Origin: Nitrospira sp. LK70
Lineage (GTDB): Bacteria > Nitrospirota > Nitrospiria > Nitrospirales > Nitrospiraceae
Assembly: GCA_011090425.1 (NCBI GenBank)
Contig: PHGD01000022.1
Span: forward strand, 1-47,326
DNA length: 47,326 nucleotides
Direction: 5' to 3'
In this document: in pieces, positions 4,258-45,607 of the stretch
Layout: every line of letters starts with the position of its first letter
Numbering within the stretch: the first letter of the stretch is position 1
Translations under genes and position numbers: made by a program
Notes under the pieces: model-generated
Database searches by the model: none
The model's input: the letters and a program-made list of their open reading frames with translations, nothing else
Told to the model about the DNA's origin: nothing

Positions 4258-5202
4258 CTAGCCGAGATATACGTTGTGATTGTGCCACTGGAGGAACTGA
4301 TCCGAAGGTCGATCTTTCTGGGTTGCTGGGATCACAGCCAGCTGTTTTCCATGCAAGGCATAATAGTCTCGACCGTTCTCATATTCTTCCTTGATCTTTC
4401 GGCTAACCTCGACGTGCAGGTTGGGAGTAACTGAGATATACCCAAGGTCGAAGAGCTTATGGAGGTCAGACCGCATTAACATGCCGTTTGCTATCAGGTT
4501 GGGGCCTGATTTAGAGAATGGTTTGATATGAGCTGCCTGCAGGACTGGTAGAGTTCGTTCTCCCGTAACCGCACATCGACGAGCATAGGCTTCCGTAACT
4601 AAGACTCGAAAGGCACCTTGCCCTAACCTTGCTCTCGTCAAAAATTCAGCTCCATACCTCGCCACATCCTCGGCTGCCACTGGCGTTCTACCCATCGTGC
4701 CAATTTGTTCTTGGACATAAGAGGCCTGAAGCTGATCTTGAACCTTGGTCCATATGTCTCGCCCGATTTCTTGATCGGTGTCATAAGTTTTCCCTTGGAC
4801 GATACTTGATGCCCAATCGGATGGAGCGGGAATCCAGTGTTTCCTCTCAAAGAAAAATGGATTTGCCAGAATAGTGCAACCAATGACTGGGTCATGTACG
4901 CGAGGCTTGTTGGATCTGAATTTCTCGATCCGTACACGCAGTTCTTCTAGAGAGACTGCTCCGTTCTTTTCCCCGAACGCTTCCCAAGCCAAGGAAAGAG
5001 GCAAGTTGGAATGCTTGATGAAAAAGCCTCCTCCTGCAATGAAATTATAAGGACTGTGGAGTTTGAATAAGAATAGTGATTCGGTCGGTATCGCCTGAAA
5101 GGATCCAAATCCACTTGGGCGCCAGAAATTCACCTCATCCGGAGCTCGTGAGGACAGGAATTCAAACCACTTGTTGTCGGTTACACCAATCCAGAACTTC
5201 AT
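4258..5202 (-). CDS. HNH endonuclease, putative restriction enzyme
   Basis: A 314-residue protein. The C-terminal third has an HNH nuclease signature: RRCAVTGE, then LQAAHIKPF, then LMRSDLHKLFDLGYISV, as in the HNH_2 family of putative restriction endonucleases. The N-terminal 190 residues (starting MKFWIGVTDNKWFEFLSS) are probably a DNA- or modification-recognition domain; I do not recognise a specific fold. Its ATG overlaps the stop of the truncated methyltransferase fragment by four bases (ATGA at 5199-5202), so the two could be translationally coupled. GC is visibly lower than in its neighbours (38-48% in sampled lines). It replaces the catalytic part of the mod gene, so it is likely an inserted defence gene. 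Confidence 0.83.
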   Translation of the reverse strand: MKFWIGVTDNKWFEFLSSRAPDEVNFWRPSGFGSFQAIPTESLFLFKLHSPYNFIAGGGFFIKHSNLPLSLAWEAFGEKNGAVSLEELRVRIEKFRSNKPRVHDPVIGCTILANPFFFERKHWIPAPSDWASSIVQGKTYDTDQEIGRDIWTKVQDQLQASYVQEQIGTMGRTPVAAEDVARYGAEFLTRARLGQGAFRVLVTEAYARRCAVTGERTLPVLQAAHIKPFSKSGPNLIANGMLMRSDLHKLFDLGYISVTPNLHVEVSRKIKEEYENGRDYYALHGKQLAVIPATQKDRPSDQFLQWHNHNVYLG

Positions 5203-5681
5203 AATTCGAACACCTGATCGGTGATCGAGTGCTGCGGATCGCCGAAGAGATCGAACAGGGTCTGCTGCTGGTCTCGCTTGTGGCCCGCCAGCGTTTCAAT
5301 GATGACCTTGGTGGAGAGCCGCTCATGGATGAAGCGCGGCAAGGTCGGCACGTCGAACGACAGCCGTTCACCCTTGCCCGCCCAGTTCAGGAATGGTTTG
5401 CTGAGACTCTTGAGCTTGGACGCGGCAGCCTTGGCTTCTTCGAGGCTCTTGGCGTCGAGCACTTGCTTGATGAGAGCTTCGCCTTGCTCGCGGGTCGGAT
5501 GCTTGGCATCCCAATCGAGCGCGGGTGAAAGGGATGAATCGTAGCGGTAGGTCTTCGGCGGTTTCTTCTTCTTGAACTGCGCCTGCGTCCCGACCTCGGG
5601 CCGCATGAGGCTTGTGGCCTCTGTGTGCTTGTACGGGGCGGTCTGATTCAACTTTGCCGCAGACTTAGCTTTCCTCGCCAT
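5199..5681 (-). pseudogene. N-terminal fragment of a type III-like Mod DNA methyltransferase
   Basis: 160 residues from the ATG at 5681 (ribosome binding site GAGGAGTAGG). They match the N-terminal region that precedes the catalytic domain in Mod proteins paired with this kind of Res: SLMRPEVGTQAQFKKKK, then YDSSLSPALDWD, then FLNWAGKGERLSFDVPTLP and a segment ending FDLFGDPQHSITDQV. Full-length relatives continue into an SAM-binding and DPPY catalytic domain. Here the frame stops at VFEL and an HNH gene begins. The fragment lacks all methyltransferase motifs and cannot methylate DNA alone. It could still be translated as a leader cistron for the HNH gene. The family assignment rests on remembered conserved sequence. 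Confidence 0.72.
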
Positions 5682-5783
5682 GGACCTACTCCTCTGGAAC
5701 ACTAACCAAATTGCGCCGCAGGATACTCTTTTACCGAGAAGAAATCACTTCGGAATCCTTGTAGGCCAAATAGGGCTTCCGTG

Positions 5784-6206
5784 TCATGAGAAGTCCTCGA
5801 TCCAGAGCAGCCGGCTATGGTACTCGCTGTGCTGCAGCCCATTATAGAACTTTCGATCGGCCGTCAAAAATGGCAGGTTCAGCTCCATGGCCAAAGCCAA
5901 GTACAAGCTGTCGTACAAACTCTGTTTTGTGCTTTGAGCGAGATCGAAAGCGGCTAGCACCAGCGTTTCATCCGAGTGCCAGCGGAGGGGCGCCCGTCGA
6001 AATGCCCGCCAGATGTCCTCGGTATCCTGCGCGGCCAATTCACCACGCCGGCGCTTCTTGGATAGAACATTCCCGACCTCCAGCGTGAGAAAAGCGGGAG
6101 CATGCAGTCGCGCGTCTGAGTCCTTCAGTCGCAACGCCCGCTCGCCGTGTTCTTCCGGAATGAACCATTTGAGAATGACGCTCGCATCGATGATATACGC
6201 CGTCAC
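5784..6206 (-). CDS. vapC: PIN-domain ribonuclease toxin (VapC family)
   Basis: A 140-residue PIN protein unrelated in detail to the one at 3.1-3.6 kb. It begins MTAYIIDASVILKWFIPEE with the first catalytic Asp. It has an internal Glu in LTLEVGNVLSK, then SLYDSLYLALAMEL and LTADRKFYNGL carrying the distal Asp residues. This full set of PIN acidic residues suggests an active RNase. Its start overlaps the stop of the RHH antitoxin gene by four bases (ATGA, 6203-6206), a classical antitoxin-toxin arrangement. Confidence 0.88.
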   Translation of the reverse strand: MTAYIIDASVILKWFIPEEHGERALRLKDSDARLHAPAFLTLEVGNVLSKKRRRGELAAQDTEDIWRAFRRAPLRWHSDETLVLAAFDLAQSTKQSLYDSLYLALAMELNLPFLTADRKFYNGLQHSEYHSRLLWIEDFS

Positions 6207-6439
6207 CGATCACGGTCCTCGCGGATCAACTCAGCGCTATCGCTGAATTTTCTCCCGGACCGTTTGAGCCGCTCACGAATGCGCTCGGCTTCCTTCCAGA
6301 AATCGCCCGACTCTTCTTTGGCAGCCTCCTCTAGGATCGTCTTGACTTCAGCTTGAAGCGACCGCCCTCGCGTCTTGGCTCGCTTTTTGAGCCTGGCGAC
6401 GACTTTGTCTTGAAGATTTCGAACAAGCACCTGTGCCAT
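6203..6439 (-). CDS. FitA/VapB-like ribbon-helix-helix antitoxin
   Basis: 78 residues from the ATG at 6439, chosen because AGGAGG lies just upstream; the frame extends 45 bases further without a good site. MAQVLVRNLQDKVVARLKKRA followed by RGRSLQAEVKTILEEAA is the FitA-type ribbon-helix-helix DNA-binding domain. The charged C-terminal tail (FWKEAERIRERLK) would wrap the PIN toxin. Family knowledge: these antitoxins neutralise the toxin and repress their own promoter, so an operator is likely upstream of 6439. Confidence 0.86.
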   Translation of the reverse strand: MAQVLVRNLQDKVVARLKKRAKTRGRSLQAEVKTILEEAAKEESGDFWKEAERIRERLKRSGRKFSDSAELIREDRDR

Positions 6440-26971: not shown

Positions 26972-28888
26972 CTAGTGACTAGCAGCTGGTTGCGGGACGC
27001 TGCCCGGGATGCCGGCTGTGGCCGTCACCGGAGCCTTCTTTGCCGCCAAGCTGCCCATCCAGAAGACAAAAAGGATGCTGATCCAGAAAAACAGCACATT
27101 GAAAGAAATCATATTTGCGGCGAATCCCACCGTATGAGTATAGGCCCAAGGTGAGTTATCCCGCATGATCTCATTGACGTGCCAGAATAGGCGAACGGAA
27201 GAGCGAATATAGCCCATTAATGCCATCATCCAGGTGAAAGCCGTCGCCAACATGATGAGGGCATACTGTGAGCGGACGGAAATCTTCCCCCACTCAATCG
27301 GCCCCATTTGCTTTGCTCCTCTCATCATCACAGTGTTCAGGGCGAACATGAAGAAGAGACATGACAACGTTGTTGCCACTTGAGGGACAGACAAACCGAC
27401 TCGCACGTTCGCAGGAATATAATACCCGTAAATAGCCAGCCAGATGATATTGACGTACGCGCAAGCAAAGAATACGCCCATGAAGATGTTCCCGAACTTC
27501 GCCCATGATACCGTCGAGACTTTATTGCCCCGCATGTACCAGATGAAGCTCAACACCGTGGTCGTAATCATCACATTGATGCCGCCATTCTTCGCCGACA
27601 TGACCCCAAAATTACCCAATACTGGGTGCTGCTGGCCTCCCATGGCCTTCAACTCAGCCGGCGACATCACCATGGTGTGCGGCGTAATGAACACCAAGAA
27701 TCCACAGATGAGCAGAAATACAAGATATTTAATGTACCGTTGATACTTCTCGGCACCACGCATGCGGCCCATTGCCTGCCAGAGGTAGTAGTTGGAGCTC
27801 AAGAAGAGAATTCCGATCATCGTGGCCTGGATAATAAAGAGCCAGGCAAGCAACCCGCCCATTAGCGTGATTCCCATCTGCTGACGATACGCGTACACCT
27901 CGCGCATGAGCCAATATCCGGCAAATGGCAATGGAATCAAGAATGCCACGCCAAGCGCCATTGCGATGTAGCCCATCCAATCGTAGTGCGCGCGGTCTTC
28001 ATCAGTCTTCGCCGACAAGAACTTATACGCGGCATAGGCAGCGACCACTCCTCCACCAAAGGCCATGTTGCCTAGAATGCGGTGGAGATTGAGCGGATTC
28101 CACAAGGCAGTATGAATAACATGCCAGATATTCCCCAGGTACCGACCCTGCTCGTCGACACCGGCGGGCGACATCATGAATCCAATCCAAGAATTTGCCA
28201 GGAACATGAGGAGCGTGCCGATGACGTTCAAAACCACCGACATGCTCAGGTGGATCCACTTGAGGAACCCCTCCTTCATCTTGTCCCAGCCATAATAATA
28301 GATATAGAGAGTCCCGCTCTCGGCCACGAACATCAATGCGTAGATATGCATGACCGGACGGAAGATACTGGAGAGATATCCGAAGAACGCCGGATACAGA
28401 GTCAGAAATGTAAAGATTAGAATGCCGCCAAGAATGGCCGTGAGCGAGTAAGCCGTGAGACTGATCTTGATAAAATCATAGGCCAGTTGATCGTAACGTT
28501 TCGCAAGCGCCTTGTCCTTGGTCACGACGCCCATGAACTCGATGATCATGCAGAAAATCGGCACAGCCAACACGAAGCTCCCATAATAAAGATGCTGTTG
28601 GTTGGCAAACCAGATCAAGACACGACTTTCGAAGTTGTATCGCGGATAATCCTTGGGACCATCCGTGGTCTTAGGAGCGGGAGCGCCGACGACGATACCC
28701 TCTGTCTTGTAATAGACATCCCGACCCTTCTCAACTTTATCTCCGTCCTTCTTCGCCGCATCGCCAGCAGGAGCCTCTTCACCGATGGCCGGCGAAGGCA
28801 GAGCTATGACGATTGGGAGTAGAAGGAGGCCGACCATCATGCAGAGCGCCACAATCGAAAACACGCGCTTGCCGGTTAAAAGGCCCAT
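26972..28888 (-). CDS. Cytochrome bd-like oxidase, catalytic subunit homologue
   Basis: 638 residues from the ATG at 28888 (AAGGAGGT upstream). It has a signal-like first helix, a hydrophilic segment, and about 14 transmembrane helices. Candidate heme ligands corresponding to CydA are the His in FANQQHLYYG, the His in NPLNLHRILGNMAFGG, and Met in RQQMGITLMGG. NSWIGFMMSPAGV corresponds to the conserved Asn-Ser/Gly-Trp segment. The canonical GRQPW quinol-oxidase motif is not present, and no CydB gene is adjacent. Family knowledge: such divergent bd-like proteins occur in Nitrospira genomes and have been proposed as terminal oxidases fed by cytochrome c. Here c-type cytochromes follow in the same operon, supporting that idea. 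Catalysis is not proven by sequence. Confidence 0.85.
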   Translation of the reverse strand: MGLLTGKRVFSIVALCMMVGLLLLPIVIALPSPAIGEEAPAGDAAKKDGDKVEKGRDVYYKTEGIVVGAPAPKTTDGPKDYPRYNFESRVLIWFANQQHLYYGSFVLAVPIFCMIIEFMGVVTKDKALAKRYDQLAYDFIKISLTAYSLTAILGGILIFTFLTLYPAFFGYLSSIFRPVMHIYALMFVAESGTLYIYYYGWDKMKEGFLKWIHLSMSVVLNVIGTLLMFLANSWIGFMMSPAGVDEQGRYLGNIWHVIHTALWNPLNLHRILGNMAFGGGVVAAYAAYKFLSAKTDEDRAHYDWMGYIAMALGVAFLIPLPFAGYWLMREVYAYRQQMGITLMGGLLAWLFIIQATMIGILFLSSNYYLWQAMGRMRGAEKYQRYIKYLVFLLICGFLVFITPHTMVMSPAELKAMGGQQHPVLGNFGVMSAKNGGINVMITTTVLSFIWYMRGNKVSTVSWAKFGNIFMGVFFACAYVNIIWLAIYGYYIPANVRVGLSVPQVATTLSCLFFMFALNTVMMRGAKQMGPIEWGKISVRSQYALIMLATAFTWMMALMGYIRSSVRLFWHVNEIMRDNSPWAYTHTVGFAANMISFNVLFFWISILFVFWMGSLAAKKAPVTATAGIPGSVPQPAASH

Positions 28889-28960
28889 GGGATACCTCCT
28901 TAAATACACTAACGTTAAATTAGCGGATGCTCACCAGAAGGCTTGACCACCTCTCACAGC

Positions 28961-32446: not shown

Positions 32447-34321
32447 CTATGTTTCTTGCGACCGAACCGGCGTGAGCAAGGGAGTTTGTTTGTTGCGAAA
32501 TTCCTCACCCATCACCGGCTGCTGCCCTCTCTCGCACATCCAAAATAGTGCGAGGACCGCCGCCCAAAACACCACCATGTTCAACGTCACCATTTTCGTA
32601 GCAAATTGGAGGTCCGGGGTGAAGGCCCATGGTGAAACATCGGCCATCACTTCACTAACATGCCAAGACAAGCGTCCCGATGAGCGAATGTACCCCATCA
32701 ACCCCATGACCCAACTAAAGGATGCCGCTAACCCGAACAATCCAACCATGCCGCGCAACGGAATTTTCCCCCACTGAATGGAGCCATGTATCACCGCTCC
32801 TCTTAGCATGAGGCGATTGATCACCACTCCGACAACGACCACGGTCAGCGTGGTGAGGGCTTGGGGAGCTGAAAGGCCGACCCGAACCTTTGCCGGTAAA
32901 TAGAACCCATAGACAGACAGCCAGATGATGTTCAACGCACCCACCACGTACAGTATCCCGATGAGGGCGTTTCCAGTCCTGACCCATGAGATGGTCATGG
33001 TTCGATTCGCTCGGCGATAGTACAAAAAGCTGAGCGCTGTGACGAGAATCATGATATTGACGGCGCCATTCTTGGCCGACATGACTCCGTAGTTGCCGAT
33101 CACGGGATGCTGAGCGCCTCCCATCGCCTTCACTTCACTGGCAGACATCAACAGGGTGTGCGGTGTCAGCCAAATAAAGAGCGCCAGCATCAAGATGCCC
33201 AACAAGAGCTGATAGTAAGGCTGATAGCGCTCGCCCCCTTTGATTCGAGCCATACTCTGCCAGAGGTAGTAGTTGATCCCCAGGAATAGGACACCGATCA
33301 AGAGTGCCTGGACCACAAACAGCCATGTGAGCAACCCACCCATCATCGTCACACCCATAGTCTGGCGAAACATGAACACCGACTTCATCAGCCAGTAGCC
33401 GGCAATGGGCATGGGCAGGAGCGCGCAGACCGTGACAAACAAGAAGACATATCCGACCCAATCGAAATAGGCTCGCTCCTCGTCGGTCTTGCTCGTAAAA
33501 AACCGATAACAGGCATAGGCCAGCACGACCGCGCCACCGGACATGATGTCAGCGAGGAAGCGATGAACATTGAGCGGGTTCCAGAGGGCGGAATGCAACA
33601 GATGCCAGGTATTCCCCAAGAACCGTCCCTGCGCATCCACCCCTGCCGGCGACATCATGAAGGCAGACCAAGAGTTTACCAACGTCAGCAACGCTGTCCC
33701 CACAATATTCGTCAGGATGCCGATCGCCGCGTGGATCCACTTCATACCGCGATCCGTCATCCGATTCCACCCATAGTAATAGACGATCAGCAGCAGCGTC
33801 TCCCCGAGGAACACGACAGCGTAGGCCGGCATGAAGCCCTTGAACGTCCCGCCCATATAGGCCATGAAACTGGGGTACAGCGTGATGAACATCGTCAACA
33901 TCGTACTGCCGATGAGCGCCGTCACCGACAATGCCAAAACCGCCACCTTTGCCAGATCTCTCGCAAGACCGTCGTAACGAAGGGCCAAGGCCGGCTTCTT
34001 CGTCGTCAAACCCAGGAACTCGAGCAGCGCGCAAAATAAAGGAAGAGCGAGTACGAAACCGCCGAAGTAGGTATGTTGCTGTGTCACGAACCACACCAGC
34101 AACCGACTGTCCAAGGAGCCGATTCGTGGATAAGTCGTCTCATGCGGAGCAGGAGCCGCCGGTCCCTGTGGAGTCCCCTCAGTGCCGAAGTACAGATCGG
34201 TCGATGACTCTGCAAATGAGAGATTTGGTCCATTCCACGCGCCTCCCATGGCAATGGCGACCATCGCGATACAGATCGCAACACTGATCGCAGGACGCTT
34301 CAACCTGAATCCTTGCCCCAT
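32447..34321 (-). CDS. Cytochrome bd-like oxidase, second paralogue
   Basis: 624 residues from the ATG at 34321 (AAGGGG upstream). It aligns by eye along its whole length with the oxidase at 26972-28888. Shared segments are YPRIGSLDSRLLVWFVTQQH for the region around the first His, NPLNVHRFLADIMSGG for the second His, and RQTMGVTMMGGLLTW for the Met. NSWSAFMMSPAGV, PHTLLMSASEVKAMGG and HPVIGNYGVMSAKNG are also shared. It therefore keeps the same putative heme ligands. No c-type cytochrome genes adjoin it. Instead it follows a polytopic membrane protein by 4 bases and precedes DUF3047. It is likely an alternative oxidase with different partners. Confidence 0.84.
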   Translation of the reverse strand: MGQGFRLKRPAISVAICIAMVAIAMGGAWNGPNLSFAESSTDLYFGTEGTPQGPAAPAPHETTYPRIGSLDSRLLVWFVTQQHTYFGGFVLALPLFCALLEFLGLTTKKPALALRYDGLARDLAKVAVLALSVTALIGSTMLTMFITLYPSFMAYMGGTFKGFMPAYAVVFLGETLLLIVYYYGWNRMTDRGMKWIHAAIGILTNIVGTALLTLVNSWSAFMMSPAGVDAQGRFLGNTWHLLHSALWNPLNVHRFLADIMSGGAVVLAYACYRFFTSKTDEERAYFDWVGYVFLFVTVCALLPMPIAGYWLMKSVFMFRQTMGVTMMGGLLTWLFVVQALLIGVLFLGINYYLWQSMARIKGGERYQPYYQLLLGILMLALFIWLTPHTLLMSASEVKAMGGAQHPVIGNYGVMSAKNGAVNIMILVTALSFLYYRRANRTMTISWVRTGNALIGILYVVGALNIIWLSVYGFYLPAKVRVGLSAPQALTTLTVVVVGVVINRLMLRGAVIHGSIQWGKIPLRGMVGLFGLAASFSWVMGLMGYIRSSGRLSWHVSEVMADVSPWAFTPDLQFATKMVTLNMVVFWAAVLALFWMCERGQQPVMGEEFRNKQTPLLTPVRSQET

Positions 34322-34325
34322 ACAT

Positions 34326-35393
34326 CTACCCCTTCGTTCCGGTCTCGCCGAGCACCAACTCCCCACCCGCATCATTCGTACTGACCCTCTTCCCAAGAAT
34401 CCCCATCACGAACGGACAACGCAACATCCCACTCGATAGTTGCGGAGCCTGTTCATCTTCCACATGGCGGCGATTGCCAAGATAATACCCGTACAGACCC
34501 ATCATCGCCGTCACCAGCGCGCCCATCATGGCGGCTGAGCTCGGCGTAATCGTCGGTTGCCTCAGCACAAACAGCAACAGTCCCATCGTCACCAAATAAT
34601 AGGTCGAGGCAAAGGCCATCCCAGGCCACCACCAATACTTCAGCAACTCACTCGGTGCGGTCTGACGGAGAGTGCGAGTCCACGATGTAGATGGGTAGAG
34701 CCCGCCGAAATAGGCGCAGAGAGCGAGGCCACCGCCGAGGACCGTCACACTCAACAATTGAGCCAACGCGGCCCCTTGAACATCCGCAATGACCATCCCC
34801 GACAACGATGCAATCGTACCCATACCAAGACCCACCACGACCCAGGGTCCCAATTGCCAAGCCCTCCGTTGCACCAAGGCACGAAGTTGCCGGCCATCGG
34901 GGAACGTGAGAAACGGCCGTCCCAACAGCGAGAGCTTACGCACATGTCCGATTTCAAACGCATCCCGAGCGACGGCCGTGCATGAGATGATGATCGCCAT
35001 CATGGCCGGCCCATCGGGATGTTGGAGATAATCGTAATTCATGATCCATAACAGGGTCAGCACCAACAAGGAGAGCTGGATGCCATACATGGCTCCGATC
35101 CATCCGGCAAGCCAGCTGAGGAGACGCGCTCCGTCTTGACGGACAATGACGGACCATGGGGCAGACCGACCAACCCGATAGGCCAGAACCGAGGTGACCG
35201 CTGCCACTAGACTGCTGACCGTCAACAAGACAAAAGGATCCGCGATCGGAACGAGATGCTTGAGGAGGCGATACACCCCGAACGCAACCAGTCCGGGGAC
35301 AACCATCACGATCCGTTTTTTCTTGCGGACGGTCTCTTCCGTGACCGCTAAACTTAAACTCGGAAGAACCCGCAAGGCCATGCGGTGCAACAT
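34326..35393 (-). CDS. Polytopic membrane protein of unknown function
   Basis: 355 residues with about eight to nine predicted transmembrane helices, for example IVMVVPGLVAFGVYRLL, FVLLTVSSLVAAVTSVLAY, LSLLVLTLLWIM and MMGALVTAMMGLYGYYLG. A charged region with SLLGRPFLTFPDGRQL lies in the middle, followed by more helices. I recognise no family; it is not CydB. The stop is 4 bases from the start of the second bd-like oxidase, so the two are tightly coupled. A partner-subunit role is possible. Confidence 0.7.
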   Translation of the reverse strand: MLHRMALRVLPSLSLAVTEETVRKKKRIVMVVPGLVAFGVYRLLKHLVPIADPFVLLTVSSLVAAVTSVLAYRVGRSAPWSVIVRQDGARLLSWLAGWIGAMYGIQLSLLVLTLLWIMNYDYLQHPDGPAMMAIIISCTAVARDAFEIGHVRKLSLLGRPFLTFPDGRQLRALVQRRAWQLGPWVVVGLGMGTIASLSGMVIADVQGAALAQLLSVTVLGGGLALCAYFGGLYPSTSWTRTLRQTAPSELLKYWWWPGMAFASTYYLVTMGLLLFVLRQPTITPSSAAMMGALVTAMMGLYGYYLGNRRHVEDEQAPQLSSGMLRCPFVMGILGKRVSTNDAGGELVLGETGTKG

Positions 35394-39440: not shown

Positions 39441-40235
39441 TTACTTGATTTCAGCCTTGAGGTTGGCGGTGCCGCCGTCGGCCACATCGACCTCAAACTC
39501 TATCTTCTTGGCCTTCCCGGCAAATGGATGCCAGGCGATGACTTTGTGTTTGCCAGCCGGGACATCCTTGATCTCAAAGGAACCATCGTCCTTCACCACA
39601 GCAAAATACGGGTTCGACACAGGCAGGAAGAACGATTGCATGAACTCATGCTGGTCGCACTGTAACCGGAAATATCCTTCCTTCTCTGCACCGCCACGGA
39701 AGGTCACCGGCTTATCAAGCTTGTCGCCTTTCTTGGCAAGCCCGATGTTGAAGCCGGTTGCTGAAGTCGTGCCTTTTACGGTGAAGCTATGCGGGTTATG
39801 GAGCACACCCTGAACAGACTTAGGATCATCCGGGTCAGCATCCGTGTTCTCCACCTTGAACGGACGGGTGTTGACGACGATGCCGCTGAACGGCAAAAAT
39901 TCGCAGAACGCGGCCGTGACTTCCGTGCCGCCGTAGCCGTCCACAAACGCCTTGTCTTCAACGTCGGTCACGGCAACCACCGCGCCCTTCAAACCACCGT
40001 CTTTCCCGACTTCGATCTGTTTCAGAAACCGCTTGTCCCCATCCATCAAGCTCTTGTTGGGGTTCTTAGGGCAGAACTTGGGATTCGGGAACTTTGAAAA
40101 GAGGAACTCTTTTTGCTCCGCCTTACCGGCATATGTCACCTTTCCAGTGATCGTTCCACCCGCATACGAGGTGAGAGGCGCCGCGACCAACGCGACGGCC
40201 GCCACACCAAATATAATTGTTAACGCACTCTTCAT
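39441..40235 (-). CDS. Secreted plastocyanin/carboxypeptidase-regulatory-like protein
   Basis: 264 residues with a signal peptide (SALTIIFGVAAVALVAAPL, cleavage near SYAGG). Its mature part begins GTITGKVTYAGKAEQKEF and contains FCPKNPNKSLMDGDKRFLKQ, AVVAVTDV, LHNPHSFTV and LQCDQHEFMQSFFLP, followed by DGSFEIKDVPAGKHKVIAWH. The last is the carboxypeptidase-regulatory/SdrD-like pattern, and the Cys-x-x-His-x-x-Met arrangement recalls a copper or heme site. AAGGAGG precedes the ATG. It is divergent from the lasso-like gene cluster. Related proteins are abundant in Nitrospira-like genomes, but the function is not known. Confidence 0.75.
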   Translation of the reverse strand: MKSALTIIFGVAAVALVAAPLTSYAGGTITGKVTYAGKAEQKEFLFSKFPNPKFCPKNPNKSLMDGDKRFLKQIEVGKDGGLKGAVVAVTDVEDKAFVDGYGGTEVTAAFCEFLPFSGIVVNTRPFKVENTDADPDDPKSVQGVLHNPHSFTVKGTTSATGFNIGLAKKGDKLDKPVTFRGGAEKEGYFRLQCDQHEFMQSFFLPVSNPYFAVVKDDGSFEIKDVPAGKHKVIAWHPFAGKAKKIEFEVDVADGGTANLKAEIK

Positions 40236-40428
40236 TGGACTGCCTCCTTGTGATTGACCAACATCCTAGTTCCTGACTTACCCGTTTCTCTCTCTTGCAT
40301 CAGACCATAGGACTCTCGATTATCCTCTTATCGAAGACATGATCATGGCGTGATAGAGACCGAGTATGTATATGAAATATTACAACCTCCTGTCAATCTC
40401 AAACAAGGGTCTCATCAAGAGCATATTT

Positions 40429-40461
40429 CTCCTAGCGACCTCCCTAGGAGTTCTGTACAAT
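40429..40461 (+). promoter_or_regulatory. Promoter with overlapping palindrome for the RiPP precursor
   Basis: A perfect 7-base inverted repeat, CTCCTAG (40429-40435) and CTAGGAG (40444-40450) with an 8-base spacer, overlaps the -35 area of a promoter whose -10 is TACAAT at 40456-40461. The -35 hexamer itself is poor. This suggests regulation by a dimeric protein at the dyad. Transcription would begin about 20 bases upstream of the start codon at 40488. Confidence 0.5.
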
Positions 40462-40487
40462 CGCGGCGACAATGGGAGGGACGCTCC

Positions 40488-40661
40488 ATGGAACAAAAAG
40501 CCACCGCCGATCAACAAACGCCCCCTCCCAAAAAACCCTATACTACTCCGACCCTCGTAGAATACGGCAACATTGCTAAGCTGACGCAGGGGGGCCCCAG
40601 TGGAATGAATCCTGATTTCATGTCAGGGATGTTCGCCATGACCATGGGAATGTGTCTCTAG
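40488..40661 (+). CDS. Lasso-peptide-like RiPP precursor
   Basis: 57 residues from the ATG at 40488 (GGGAGGG upstream). The leader has Y18-x2-P21-x-L23-x3-G27-x5-T33, the canonical YxxPxLxxxGxxxxxT motif of lasso-peptide leaders. T33 is at position -2 if cleavage is after Q34, as the leader peptidase prefers. The predicted core then starts Gly-Gly-Pro-Ser-Gly and has Asp at core position 9, the size needed for a macrolactam ring. A tail of 14 residues follows, rich in Met and ending Met-Cys-Leu. The precursor family is very likely. That the product is a true lasso is uncertain, because no cyclase lies nearby. Confidence 0.8.
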   Translation: MEQKATADQQTPPPKKPYTTPTLVEYGNIAKLTQGGPSGMNPDFMSGMFAMTMGMCL

Positions 40662-40724
40662 CTAGAGAAGGTTTACCCTGTGTTTCTGAGGTACAGCCTC
40701 TGATGTCAGGAGGAGGTCCCCACC

Positions 40725-41870
40725 TTGTCACTCGTCGTCGATGAGCATCGTCACTATCTTCAGGACCATGTGCGCCTCGCAGCATTTCGTCAGGCCATTC
40801 ACGAATTGGTTGTACCGGGATCGGTTGTCGTTGATCTTGGATCCGGAACCGGAATTTTGGGGCTCTTGGCCTGCGAAGCTGGGGCCAAGCGTGTCTATGC
40901 GATCGAGGAAACCAGCCTCATCGAACTGGCTCGTGAGATCTGTCAAGCCAATGGATTGGCAGACCGGATTTGTTTCATCAAAGAGCTTTCGACACATGTC
41001 GATTTGCCTGAGCCGGCCGATGTGATCCTCGCCGACCAGATTGGGCATTTTGGATTTGAAGCCGGCCTCTTTGACTATTTCAGCGACGCTCGCCGTCGGT
41101 TTCTCAAACCGAACGGCACCACGATTCCGGGACGGATCACGTTCTGTCTCGCCCCCGTTGAACACGAACCCCTGTGGCAGCAAGTCGAATTCTGGAACCG
41201 GTCTCACATGGAGTTTGATGTCAGCCCGGCTTGTTCCATCGCCGCCAACACGGGCTATCCGGTCAAATTGATGCCTGAGCAGCTCTTGGGGCCATCGGTG
41301 GAACCGCTCTCGTTAGACCCCAGTGTCGGTGGTTCTCAACCACTTCACTTCCAATGCACACTCTCGATCAGCAAATCCGGGACCCTGCACGGCCTGGGCT
41401 GTTGGTTCGTGGCTCACCTGTCTCCCTCAGTCACCATGACTAATTCACCACTGTGCGAACAACGTATCGATCGGCGCAACGTCTTCTTTCCGATCGACCG
41501 GCCGATTCCTGTCCAAACAGGGGATTCTATGACCGTGACCATGCACATCCTTCCTGTTCAGATTGCCGTCACTTGGACGATTGAAATCCATAAGAATAAA
41601 GCATCGGTACCAGAACCTATTCGCTTTACTCATAGCACGCTCAAAGGCATGCTCATCTCACGAGAAGACTTACAGCGTACTCACCCAGCCTTCGTCCCGA
41701 CCCTCACTCCATGGGGCGCCGCACGTCTCACTGTGCTGACGCTCTGCGACGGACAGCGGCCATTAGCCCACATCGAACAGGAAGTTCTCCGTCGCCACCC
41801 AACCCTCTTCGCTTCGCTCTCCAGCGCAGCCACGTTTGTGGCCGAAGTGGTCACCAGGTACTCCGCATGA
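40725..41870 (+). CDS. PRMT-like methyltransferase fused to a PqqD-like domain
   Basis: 381 residues. The start is TTG at 40725 with AGGAGGAGGT eight bases upstream. The N-terminal two-thirds has class I SAM motifs VVVDLGSGTGILGLL (35-48) and RVYAIEET, then ADVILADQIGHFGFEAG. That segment occupies the place of the PRMT double-E loop, but with Asp104 in place of the first Glu; the second is E112. The remaining barrel-like part follows. The C-terminus (about 325-381, TPWGAARLTVLTLCDGQRPLA then AATFVAEVVTRYS) resembles PqqD, the RiPP recognition element. A PRMT tied to a peptide-recognition domain beside a RiPP precursor suggests a leader-guided methyltransferase. Confidence 0.78.
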   Translation: MSLVVDEHRHYLQDHVRLAAFRQAIHELVVPGSVVVDLGSGTGILGLLACEAGAKRVYAIEETSLIELAREICQANGLADRICFIKELSTHVDLPEPADVILADQIGHFGFEAGLFDYFSDARRRFLKPNGTTIPGRITFCLAPVEHEPLWQQVEFWNRSHMEFDVSPACSIAANTGYPVKLMPEQLLGPSVEPLSLDPSVGGSQPLHFQCTLSISKSGTLHGLGCWFVAHLSPSVTMTNSPLCEQRIDRRNVFFPIDRPIPVQTGDSMTVTMHILPVQIAVTWTIEIHKNKASVPEPIRFTHSTLKGMLISREDLQRTHPAFVPTLTPWGAARLTVLTLCDGQRPLAHIEQEVLRRHPTLFASLSSAATFVAEVVTRYSA

Positions 41871-42868
41871 CTGTTGAGGCACTTCTGCGGAACTCCTGCG
41901 TGCGGTATCGCGCGTACGGCAATATTCTGAATTGTAGTTCGCCGCTGCATGAATTGGCGCAATCCGAGGCTCCAGATGCCTCAGAACCGGCTGACCTACA
42001 CATCGTGTTTTGCTCATCTGAGGAATACATTCCTACGCCCGCATCCTGGTACTTGACCGTGTCGCTCGCAGACGACACAGCCTGGTTGCGCTGCGCCAAG
42101 ATCGCCTCAGGCTATTTCTTGCACTTCCCCGATCTGGCCGGGTTTGTGTTTTCCCCATCGGACAGTTCCATCCGCTGCATCCCGCATCAGCACACACCTG
42201 CTCACACCGTGAACCATTTGCTCTTGGACCAAGTGCTCCCCCTCGTGCTGAACTATCGAGGGAAGGAGGTGTTGCATGGAGCCGCGGTCGCCACACCCTA
42301 TGGTGCCTGTGCGTTCCTCGGTCCGACCGGAAGCGGGAAATCCACGTTGGCGGCGAGTTTTCTCTCCGCGGGATATTCCGTATTAGCCGATGATTGTGTC
42401 GTCCTCGATACTTGCGGAGAGGACATCGTCACGATTCGCACTTATCCTGGGCTCAGGCTGTGGAATGATGCAATCGCGGCGCTCTTCGGCACAACGGGAG
42501 CTTCTGCGCCAGTCGCGCACTATACTCCTAAACAGCGTTTCACCGCTGCTGTCTCCGCCACACCCATAGGCCCTTCCGCCATTTCATTAGCCGGGATCTA
42601 CGTGATCGACACAAGCAGCCCGCCACAGGCTGCCTCCGCCATCACCCGTGAGCGGCCGACTCTTATTCAGCGGGAGGCTCTCATGACCCTCCTCTCGCTA
42701 GCGTTCAAACTAGATATTGAAGACCAGTCCATGTTGACCCGAGAATTCGACTTTCTTCATCGTCTCGTCGCTCGGGTCCCCGTTCGCCGCTTGATCATTC
42801 CGGACTCATTCGAGACTCTGCCCCACGTGCGGGCTGGCATTCTCCAGGATCTGAGAAAATCATGTTGA
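41867..42868 (+). CDS. HprK-like serine kinase of the RiPP cluster
   Basis: 333 residues from the ATG at 41867, overlapping the previous stop (ATGA). The N-terminal part is not conserved to my eye. The catalytic core has KEVLHGAAVATPYGACAF, the Walker A GPTGSGKST (152-160), and SAGYSVLADDCVVLD as in HPr kinase. PGLRLWNDAIAALFG is a further segment seen in this family. Lasso clusters such as paeninodin use an HprK-like kinase to phosphorylate the precursor. It is thus likely to act on the peptide rather than on HPr, as no HPr gene is near. Confidence 0.82.
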   Translation: MTVEALLRNSCVRYRAYGNILNCSSPLHELAQSEAPDASEPADLHIVFCSSEEYIPTPASWYLTVSLADDTAWLRCAKIASGYFLHFPDLAGFVFSPSDSSIRCIPHQHTPAHTVNHLLLDQVLPLVLNYRGKEVLHGAAVATPYGACAFLGPTGSGKSTLAASFLSAGYSVLADDCVVLDTCGEDIVTIRTYPGLRLWNDAIAALFGTTGASAPVAHYTPKQRFTAAVSATPIGPSAISLAGIYVIDTSSPPQAASAITRERPTLIQREALMTLLSLAFKLDIEDQSMLTREFDFLHRLVARVPVRRLIIPDSFETLPHVRAGILQDLRKSC

Positions 42869-44061
42869 CCCTGCCGTCCGTACATCCGTTTCTGATGACG
42901 ATTTTGACGGATACCTCGTCTGAAACAAACCAACCTGCCCTCGTCCCACACGATGCTTGGGAAACCATCGTTGAAGAGGCCATCACGCAACGAGTAGCCC
43001 CTCTCCTCCTTTGTTGGCTCAGCCACCCTACCGACCAGCATGAGATTCCTCTCCAGTTACTAAATGCTCTGAAGCAACAGGTAGTCCAGCACACAGCCTG
43101 GCATCTGCTCTTGGTAATAGAACTCCGAGACATTCTGGCTACGTGTGAACAGCAGGGCATTGCCTCTGTTCCGATTCGTGGACCGATGTTGGCCGAACAG
43201 TTGTATGGTGATGGCTCGACCCGCCAGATGGATGATCTGGACTTCCTCGTTCATCGCGAGGATCTCTCTGCTCTCAAGGACATTTTCCAGCACCTTGGCT
43301 ATGCGAACCACGAACATCGGCATGGCTTTCTAGAGACCTTCTCCTATTCGCTGGAATTCGTTCATCCAAATCATGGTTTCCTTGTTGAACCTCATTGGAC
43401 TCTGGCTTACCCACCGTTTATCGGAACTGCCGACTTGGAACCAGTGTGGACGCGGACCAGGAGACAGCAATGGGCAGGAATAAATACCTGGACCCTTAGC
43501 AATGAAGATCTTCTGCTCCATCTCTGCCTTCACCTCCATCATAAAGGACGGCAAGCTCCGCTCCTGTGGTTTTATGAGTTGCATACCGTGATCCAGCGGC
43601 AGGGCTCAACGCTCGACTGGAACATCCTCATGCAACAGGCGCAGCTCATGGAGCAGACCCAGGCAGTCTATGACGTCCTCACGATCGTGACGGAAACTTT
43701 TCATTCGCCCGTACCTGAAGTAGTGGCCAACCAGTTCGCCGGGCACGTACGCGACGATTCTTCGCCTTCGTCGTTGATGGTCTGCAATCAGATCCTGACT
43801 CGGTCGTCTCTCAACGGACGAGAAGAGTTTGTACTTCTCTGTTCTCTTGAAAGTCTTCACCAACAATTCCAATACCTCTACGCCCTCCTTTTTCCCTCTG
43901 CCCGATTCATGACCCGGCGATATGGAGCCTCCACTCGTATGGGTCTCATCGGCTCCTATATCACCAGATTCTTCCATATAGGGGCTGAAGGCCTTCGCTG
44001 CGCCGTCGCATGGATCGGTACCATCGTCGCCACAAGACCGAGCTCATCCATCCGCCGATAG
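42862..44061 (+). CDS. Nucleotidyltransferase-like protein (NTP_transf_5) of the RiPP cluster
   Basis: 399 residues with the NTP_transf_5 signature: VPIRGPMLAEQLYGDGSTRQ then MDDLDFLVHREDL, which carries the Asp residues of a nucleotidyltransferase site. The continuation LSNEDLLLHLCLHLHHKG is typical of the family. Its ATG overlaps the kinase stop by 7 bases. Family knowledge: such proteins recur beside lasso-type and other RiPP precursors, and their reaction is uncertain. It is the last gene of the apparent four-gene unit. Confidence 0.8.
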   Translation: MLTLPSVHPFLMTILTDTSSETNQPALVPHDAWETIVEEAITQRVAPLLLCWLSHPTDQHEIPLQLLNALKQQVVQHTAWHLLLVIELRDILATCEQQGIASVPIRGPMLAEQLYGDGSTRQMDDLDFLVHREDLSALKDIFQHLGYANHEHRHGFLETFSYSLEFVHPNHGFLVEPHWTLAYPPFIGTADLEPVWTRTRRQQWAGINTWTLSNEDLLLHLCLHLHHKGRQAPLLWFYELHTVIQRQGSTLDWNILMQQAQLMEQTQAVYDVLTIVTETFHSPVPEVVANQFAGHVRDDSSPSSLMVCNQILTRSSLNGREEFVLLCSLESLHQQFQYLYALLFPSARFMTRRYGASTRMGLIGSYITRFFHIGAEGLRCAVAWIGTIVATRPSSSIRR

Positions 44062-44189: not shown

Positions 44190-44795
44190 ATGGAGACATC
44201 TTCTCAACTCGTCGCCTCGGCCATTGACCCTAAACTAGTGGCCCGCGTCGCCAAAGGCGAGGTCCACGCCTTTAACCAGCTCTACGATCAATCCAGTACC
44301 GTGCTCTTCAGCCTGGCACTGCGTATTCTCGACAACCGTGAAGAAGCAGCGGACGTACTTCAAGAGATCTACCTCAATGTCTGGAGAAAGGTCGTTCGCT
44401 ACGATGTCGGTCGAGGCACTCCCATCGCCTGGCTCATCACGCTGACCCGCAACCGGGCTATCGACCGATTGCGGGCACGCGGTCCTCGTACCCTCCGCCA
44501 GATGGTCCCGTCCATGGATGACGCCCAGATAGGCCAAGTTGCCGACCCAAGTTCCGATACGTTTGACTCACCGACCGACCAAGAGTTGCGAAATCTGGTC
44601 CGAGCGGCGTGGGTGAGCTTGCCGCACGTCCACCAGCAGGTGATTGAGCTGGCTTACTATGAGGGCTTTCCCGATGCGGAGATCGCGGCGCAGCTGAATC
44701 AGCCGGTGGAGGCGGTGAAGACCTGCATCGCTCTCGGCATGTCGCAACTGCTCGAATCGTTGCAATCATACTGGGAAGAAGCGGAAGCGGTATGA
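44190..44795 (+). CDS. ECF-type RNA polymerase sigma factor
   Basis: 201 residues. Region 2 shows FNQLYDQSSTVLFSLALRIL then EEAADVLQEIYLNVWRKV and PIAWLITLTRNRAIDRLR. Region 4 shows SLPHVHQQVIELAYYEGFPD then AEIAAQLNQPVEAVKTCI. It starts at the ATG at 44190, about 130 bases after the RiPP unit. Its stop overlaps the next ATG by four bases, the usual arrangement with a cognate anti-sigma factor. Promoters it recognises are not identifiable here. Confidence 0.9.
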   Translation: METSSQLVASAIDPKLVARVAKGEVHAFNQLYDQSSTVLFSLALRILDNREEAADVLQEIYLNVWRKVVRYDVGRGTPIAWLITLTRNRAIDRLRARGPRTLRQMVPSMDDAQIGQVADPSSDTFDSPTDQELRNLVRAAWVSLPHVHQQVIELAYYEGFPDAEIAAQLNQPVEAVKTCIALGMSQLLESLQSYWEEAEAV

Positions 44796-45607
44796 CACAT
44801 CACGAGTTGGAAGCCGCTGTTCCGCTCTACGCGATCGGAGCGCTTGAACGAGCTGAGCGACAGGCATTGGAGGCCCATCTGCTTGCAGGATGTATTCCTT
44901 GCCGCACGAGGCTGAAAGGGTATCAGTCGGTAGCAGTGACGTTGCCATTCGGGCTCACCATCACGACTCCTCCCCGAACCTTAAAAAATAGGATTCTGTC
45001 GTCCCGTGTATCGTCCCCCGCCACTGAGTCAGAAACCCCATCACGCTCCAAGCCAAGTCTTGAGCCGGGCGAATGGATGAATCACCTCTTCCCGCCGTCA
45101 TCCCCACCTGCCACGTCATTCGGGTGGGCGTTGGGAATGGTCACCCTCGTGGTCCTGATCATGCTGGCGTTTTTCGGATGGAACTCCTCCACCCAAGTGA
45201 CCGAAGACCTGAAGAAGTTGGCCCAACTGCAGTCCCAAGCGGTGGAAACAGGCTCTAAGCTGGTGACTCTCCAACAGCAGCTCAGCGAACGTCAAGAAAT
45301 CCTCGTCCAAACCCAAGAAGAACTGCAGCGCCGCATGGCTGAACTTGGCAGAGGTGAAAGATCAATTGATCCAGCGAGAAGCCGAGATCGAAGAGCTGAA
45401 AATCCAGGCGACTCAGGGAAGCAGGCAATCACAGCGGATCCCCTAGGCCGAACCATTCACCCAGCTTGCTCGTATCCCGCATCGAAAACCAGTCCGCGCT
45501 CACGTCGATTTCTCTTTCATGTCCCTTTCTTCAGCTCCTATGCTAGCATGCGTCGTGACCATCACGAATTCCACGAGATCTCCCTCCATACAACGAGAAC
45601 CTCATGA
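44792..45607 (+). CDS. Anti-sigma factor with a probable frameshift
   Basis: The N-terminal domain, MTHHELEAAVPLYAIGALE then AHLLAGCIPCRTRLKGY, is an anti-sigma cytoplasmic domain with a possible zinc site (His/Cys2). One transmembrane helix (ALGMVTLVVLIMLAFFGW) and a coiled coil follow (EDLKKLAQLQSQ, then EILVQTQEELQRRMAEL). After about 45346 the frame becomes Arg/Ser/Pro-rich. Removing one G at 45347/45348 instead gives AEVKDQLIQREAEIEELK, a perfect continuation of the coiled coil, ending at TAG 45444-45446. So the native end is most likely 45446 and the reading frame beyond it is spurious. It would sequester the sigma factor encoded just upstream. Confidence 0.75.
   Translation: MTHHELEAAVPLYAIGALERAERQALEAHLLAGCIPCRTRLKGYQSVAVTLPFGLTITTPPRTLKNRILSSRVSSPATESETPSRSKPSLEPGEWMNHLFPPSSPPATSFGWALGMVTLVVLIMLAFFGWNSSTQVTEDLKKLAQLQSQAVETGSKLVTLQQQLSERQEILVQTQEELQRRMAELGRGERSIDPARSRDRRAENPGDSGKQAITADPLGRTIHPACSYPASKTSPRSRRFLFHVPFFSSYASMRRDHHEFHEISLHTTRTS

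Follow-up and report, generated by a model that had tools for sequence, protein, structure and literature searches.

A probable lasso peptide pathway split by genome rearrangement, with a putative PRMT-type tailoring enzyme, in Nitrospira

Contig PHGD01000022.1 of Nitrospira sp. LK70 (C52 here), all 47,326 nucleotides of which form the window analysed, carries a compact locus that raises a simple question: how is a peptide precursor with a lasso-type leader matured when the genes coupled to it encode a methyltransferase, a kinase and a nucleotidyltransferase, and a search of the window for a peptidase and a cyclase finds neither? The earlier note on this sequence had rightly remarked on that absence and offered two explanations, either that the missing enzymes lie elsewhere in the genome, or that the locus belongs to a non-lasso class of ribosomally synthesised and post-translationally modified peptide (RiPP) that reuses the leader with methylation and phosphorylation. 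Our analysis of the 4.70-Mb genome, whose closest named relatives are Nitrospira metagenome-assembled genomes (MAGs), shows the first to be right. This is a split lasso pathway with a putative protein arginine methyltransferase (PRMT)-type tailoring enzyme: the locus is very probably the downstream half of a lasso cluster, parted from its upstream half by one chromosomal rearrangement, in a pathway that still works in trans.

The precursor is a 57-residue peptide encoded on the plus strand at 40488–40661 (ATG start 40488, stop 40661), with a Shine-Dalgarno-like GGGAGG ahead of it (40473–40479, plus strand). Its leader, running to ...KLTQ, reads Y-TT-P-T-L-VEY-G-NIAKL-T and thus has the full YxxPxLxxxGxxxxxT motif claimed for it, with Thr at position −2; it matches NF033521 (lasso_leader_L3) at 25.5 bits (cut-off 19, E 8.8e-6) and is the sole match above cut-off in the whole genome. 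The motif is common to homologues of this precursor, among which it is conserved together with the neighbouring genes. Numbering the core from Thr(−2), with cleavage placed after the residue that follows it, gives the core GGPSGMNPDFMSGMFAMTMGMCL, that is G-GPSGMNP-D9-FMSGMFAMTMGMCL with Gly1 and Asp9, which is predicted to form a Gly1–Asp9 macrolactam with a Met-rich tail and a C-terminal Cys-Leu. Asp or Glu occupies core position 8 or 9 in 35 of 38 related cores (that of L146 counted as Asp8). The cores are otherwise variable in sequence despite the Cys-Leu ending, which is found in 26/33 cores from clusters with a PRMT gene versus 0/5 from clusters lacking one (Fisher p 0.0016, not a clean test as the sequences are related), the remaining PRMT-cluster cores ending in Lys, Asp, Ile or Cys. 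The Nitrospiraceae PRMT-cluster cores are also strikingly rich in Met (6 of 23 residues in the window peptide), with one Cys each; metal binding was considered for them, and the Met-rich tail was considered as a copper-binding peptide.

A genome search for lasso cyclase and B2 homologues, the check proposed in the earlier note, recovered both: one B2 peptidase (PF13471) and an adjoining asparagine synthetase homologue lie on contig C53, and directly upstream of B2 is a stand-alone PqqD-like B1 protein of 94 residues (B1, B2 and cyclase at 5717–6001, 5973–6419 and 6407–8392 of L011). The B1 protein matches PF05402 at 69.8 bits and the B2 peptidase matches NF033537 at 64.2 bits (cut-off 33), both above cut-off; a scan of C53 for a lasso leader gave none above cut-off. 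These three genes are contiguous with the window genes in relatives. A clear PRMT orthologue occurs in about 20 of 175 family genomes, and most such relatives with long enough contigs carry an unbroken GT-B1-B2-C-A-PRMT-kinase-NTP series (C, cyclase; A, precursor; NTP, nucleotidyltransferase), mostly followed by an extracytoplasmic function (ECF) sigma factor and an anti-sigma factor. In a scan of named genomes, B1-B2-C-A-PRMT-kinase, often with NTP, was also found in MAGs labelled Acidobacteria, Rokuibacteriota, Binataceae, Deltaproteobacteria, Burkholderiales and Thermoleophilaceae, contig labels that may contain binning errors; Planctomycetota provide a rearranged, divergent case, and a Myxococcales record ends just before the PRMT position.

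Related gene sets lacking the PRMT gene were also seen. Lasso clusters with the kinase and no PRMT orthologue are present in three genomes (L123, L124 and L125, from G171, G055 and G166, respectively), with cores that lack Cys-Leu and are poor in Met; the nucleotidyltransferase gene is present in G171 and G055, and the G166 contig stops inside the kinase gene. In many Nitrospiraceae without the PRMT cluster (L127, L129, L130, L131, L132 and L134) a set of B1 (PqqD), HprK-like, NTP_transf_5 and B2 genes occurs, for which a motif search found no lasso leader and which usually has no strong lasso cyclase adjoining; possibly this is another peptide system reusing such parts.

The split itself can be followed directly in the genomes. 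The window genome (G000) and three relatives (G106, G107 and G108) have two loci, in which a cupredoxin-like gene abuts A-PRMT-kinase-NTP-sigma and GT-B1-B2-C abuts desaturase-ScpB-ScpA. In G125 and G110, which are unsplit, the desaturase gene lies next to the cupredoxin-like gene in divergent orientation. One event with two breakpoints, either an inversion or an excision and reinsertion, therefore accounts exactly for both junctions. Alignment of the DNA to unsplit genomes assigns window positions 39900–40407 to the promoter side of the cupredoxin-like gene and 40422 onward to the cyclase/precursor junction. At the breakpoint, 40421–40435 on the plus strand (GCA TAT TTC TCC TAG, or A-Y-F-S-stop) is a fossil of the ancestral cyclase 3′ end, whose first 13 bp, GCATATTTCTCCT, are repeated identically at the 3′ end of the C53 cyclase gene; the rearrangement thus broke the ancestral cluster within the last codons of that gene. 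The start of 40429 given for the precursor in the earlier note falls in this relic and is too early. The possibility that the split merely reflects a contig break or misassembly was rejected, because all four genomes share both junctions, which are reciprocal to one another; in G106 and G107 they sit inside long contigs. Both loci are kept in all four split genomes, in which the enzyme genes of both halves have no internal stops and ratios of non-synonymous to synonymous substitution (dN/dS) of 0.10–0.42, while the precursor, too short a gene for a precise estimate, gives 0.10–0.20 in five of six pairs and 0.58 in one. Both halves are thus under purifying selection, and the pathway therefore most likely works in trans.

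How firmly can a working lasso pathway be set against other readings of the locus? A non-lasso RiPP class that borrows the lasso leader and modifies its peptide solely by methylation and phosphorylation would account for a window that has neither cyclase nor peptidase and in which the tailoring genes directly follow the precursor, yet it is extremely improbable given that C53 carries B1, B2 and cyclase, that relatives have these three in one run with A-PRMT-kinase-NTP, that the acidic residue recurs at core position 8 or 9, and that the split is a traceable rearrangement; this second alternative is therefore unsupported. Alternatively, the split may have broken the pathway and left two decaying relics, as the loss of the original last residues of the cyclase at the breakpoint might suggest. 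The intact reading frames, the dN/dS values of enzymes and precursor and the retention of both loci in 4/4 split genomes make this highly unlikely. Several observations do weigh against a functional lasso pathway. The top NCBIfam models of the C53 B1 protein (NF033536, lasso PqqD, 59.2 bits, cut-off 80) and cyclase (NF033535, E 3e-146, 488.7 bits, cut-off 525) are both matched below cut-off; the split-lineage cyclases, having lost their original last residues, have a rebuilt C-terminus; the cluster was found to contain no exporter gene; and the conserved C-terminal Ser acceptor is absent, the window core ending in Cys-Leu.

For the split lasso pathway, we infer a chemistry and an order of steps as follows. 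B1 from C53 would bind the YxxP leader, B2 would cleave between positions −1 and 1, one residue past Thr(−2), and the cyclase would link the Gly1 amine to the Asp9 side chain. The product would be a lasso of 23 residues whose 14-residue tail is rich in Met and has Cys-Leu at its end, and the methyltransferase, kinase and nucleotidyltransferase of the window would act as tailoring enzymes. These three genes are coupled as the earlier note described, the methyltransferase stop and kinase start overlapping as ATGA (41867–41870) and the kinase stop and nucleotidyltransferase start overlapping by 7 bases (42862–42868). The HprK-like kinase (41867–42868, plus strand) has a P-loop, weak similarity to TIGR04352 and the His137-Lys158-Asp175-Asp176 set of lasso-precursor kinases, invariant in 23/23 sequences; the His-Lys-Asp-Asp set has been described for lasso kinases, and the pairing of kinase and nucleotidyltransferase is known from pseudomycoidin (PMC9266682). 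Phosphorylation of the window peptide is plausible: the kinase would modify a Ser or Thr, and the nucleotidyltransferase (NTP_transf_5, PF14907, E 2e-47; 42862–44061, plus strand) would extend the added phosphate, as thought for PsmK and PsmN in pseudomycoidin. The PRMT-fold enzyme may methylate a group other than arginine, for which the conserved Cys-Leu at the C-terminus is the likeliest place.

What, then, is the methyltransferase? The gene (40725–41870, plus strand) has a TTG start with AGGAGG and encodes METHYLTRANSFERASE, the first 309 residues of which model as a PRMT (mean predicted local distance difference test score 87.6), with Z 33.4 over 298 residues to the PRMT4 structure and E 2e-49 to PRMT2 by hidden Markov model (HMM). 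The PRMT half of the PRMT-PqqD fusion proposed in the earlier note therefore stands. In lasso-cluster PRMTs the double-Glu loop has Asp at its first catalytic position and no Glu at its second, and the THW loop is without its HW; the window enzyme has Asp104 and Ala113 in the former and no HW. Arginine methylation of the window peptide was rejected, because the 57-residue precursor contains no Arg, and the acceptor is probably not arginine. The PqqD half fared less well. The C-terminal tail (about residues 318–381) is confidently modelled as three helices, with no β wing or sheet of a RiPP recognition element (RRE) predicted. Its best structural match is PqqD (3g2b, Z 6.0, 51 residues, 28% identity), with lasso B1 6jx3 at Z 4.5, and PqqD recurs as a weak HMM match (TIGR03859, E 0.02–0.17). 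A Pfam search of the tail gave no PqqD (PF05402) match, a PDB sequence search gave no match, Foldseek returned E 0.44 and an hhalign profile comparison with the cluster’s own B1 gave 1.8% probability. These searches do not show a plain PqqD domain, and the tail would amount to no more than the helical part of such a fold. The idea that the methyltransferase carries the PqqD function and replaces B1 was rejected once the short B1 open reading frame was found upstream of B2; indeed, a stand-alone B1 is present in nearly every PRMT cluster whose upstream part is in the sequence.

Whether enzyme and tail serve the lasso peptide at all can be weighed from their distribution. Among named records, 19 PRMTs have the tail and 17 of these are beside a lasso cyclase; the other two come from a Nitrospira with the split and from a contig that is cut short. 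In the same records no full-length PRMT outside a lasso context has the tail. The Z of 33 to a PRMT would also fit an arginine methyltransferase whose substrate is some other protein and which is just carried along in the cluster, as would the tail-bearing relatives in G005 and G009, which keep Glu-Glu and HW, adjoin a dimethylargininase-like gene and have no adjoining lasso cluster, though on short contigs. Such a passenger is unlikely: in lasso clusters the enzyme is altered at both Glu positions, with Asp at the first, and has no HW, no tailless full-length PRMT in the named records adjoins a lasso cyclase, and Cys-Leu closes most of the partner cores. That the tail is a true leader-binding RRE, giving the methyltransferase what amounts to a second B1, is a real possibility that we lean somewhat against; PqqD as top structural match, the listed lasso B1 and the recurring weak PqqD HMM match speak for it, and the missing β wing, the Foldseek E-value and the profile probability against the cluster’s B1 speak against it. 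We tentatively propose, as close to an even call, that a PRMT-fold enzyme with an altered Arg site and a PqqD-like leader-binding tail is a dedicated tailoring enzyme of a lasso family across many phyla, acting on something other than arginine, with the conserved C-terminal Cys-Leu as the likeliest site. We found no earlier description of such an enzyme; our literature search returned no paper pairing ‘lasso peptide’ with an arginine methyltransferase tailoring enzyme, a weak absence given that subscription papers were mostly outside it.

Bacterial PRMTs with the same helical tail, intact Glu-Glu/HW and an adjoining dimethylargininase-like gene were seen at 4932–6062 and 6430–7224 of L113 and at 1012–2139 and 2249–3043 of L114; the two could form a bacterial arginine methylation/demethylation pair. 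Downstream of the window cluster is an ECF sigma factor (44190–44795, plus strand), a conserved cluster neighbour in Nitrospiraceae that possibly regulates the cluster, followed by an anti-sigma factor (44792–45607, plus strand). The latter diverges from its G106 homologue near 45345, the expected continuation MAEVKDQLIQREAEIEELK lying in another frame at 45345–45446, consistent with a frameshift or an assembly error. Elsewhere in the window, two similar multi-spanning proteins on the minus strand (26972–28909 and 32447–34396), paralogues by eye, are cytochrome bd oxidase-like and lie near cytochrome c genes.

A lasso precursor with no B2 or cyclase gene beside it can therefore be part of a pathway divided by chromosomal rearrangement, and genome mining by windows would overlook such a pathway or misfile it as a new class. 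The locus also points to an uncharacterised PRMT-fold lasso tailoring enzyme with a sharply defined candidate site, the C-terminal Cys-Leu. The hosts, Nitrospira among them, are for the most part soil and water bacteria not yet in culture, and little work has been done on their peptides.

Among known systems, paeninodin and its relatives (kinases PadeK and ThcoK) share with this pathway the lasso machinery, split B1 and B2 and an HprK-like kinase with His-Lys-Asp-Asp (PMC9266682). The known kinases, however, modify an extremely conserved C-terminal Ser whereas the present cores end in Cys-Leu or other residues, and that review reports no PRMT for paeninodin. Pseudomycoidin is similar in having a kinase (PsmK) and a nucleotidyltransferase (PsmN, likened by description; PMC9266682) beside a lasso precursor, and differs in that here the C-terminal Ser is absent and a PRMT-fold enzyme is added. 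Tailoring of lasso peptides by S-adenosylmethionine (SAM)-dependent methyltransferases has precedents in the lassomycin-like peptides (C-terminal methyltransferases StspM and LasF) and in the PIMT-bearing lihuanodin and cellulonodin-2 (PMC9266682), although those are O-methyltransferases of other families, while here the fold is that of a PRMT. With the eukaryotic PRMTs (PRMT1, PRMT2 and CARM1) the window enzyme shares the fold and the SAM site (motif I) over residues 3–309, but unlike them it has lost the double-Glu and THW motifs and gained a C-terminal helical tail.

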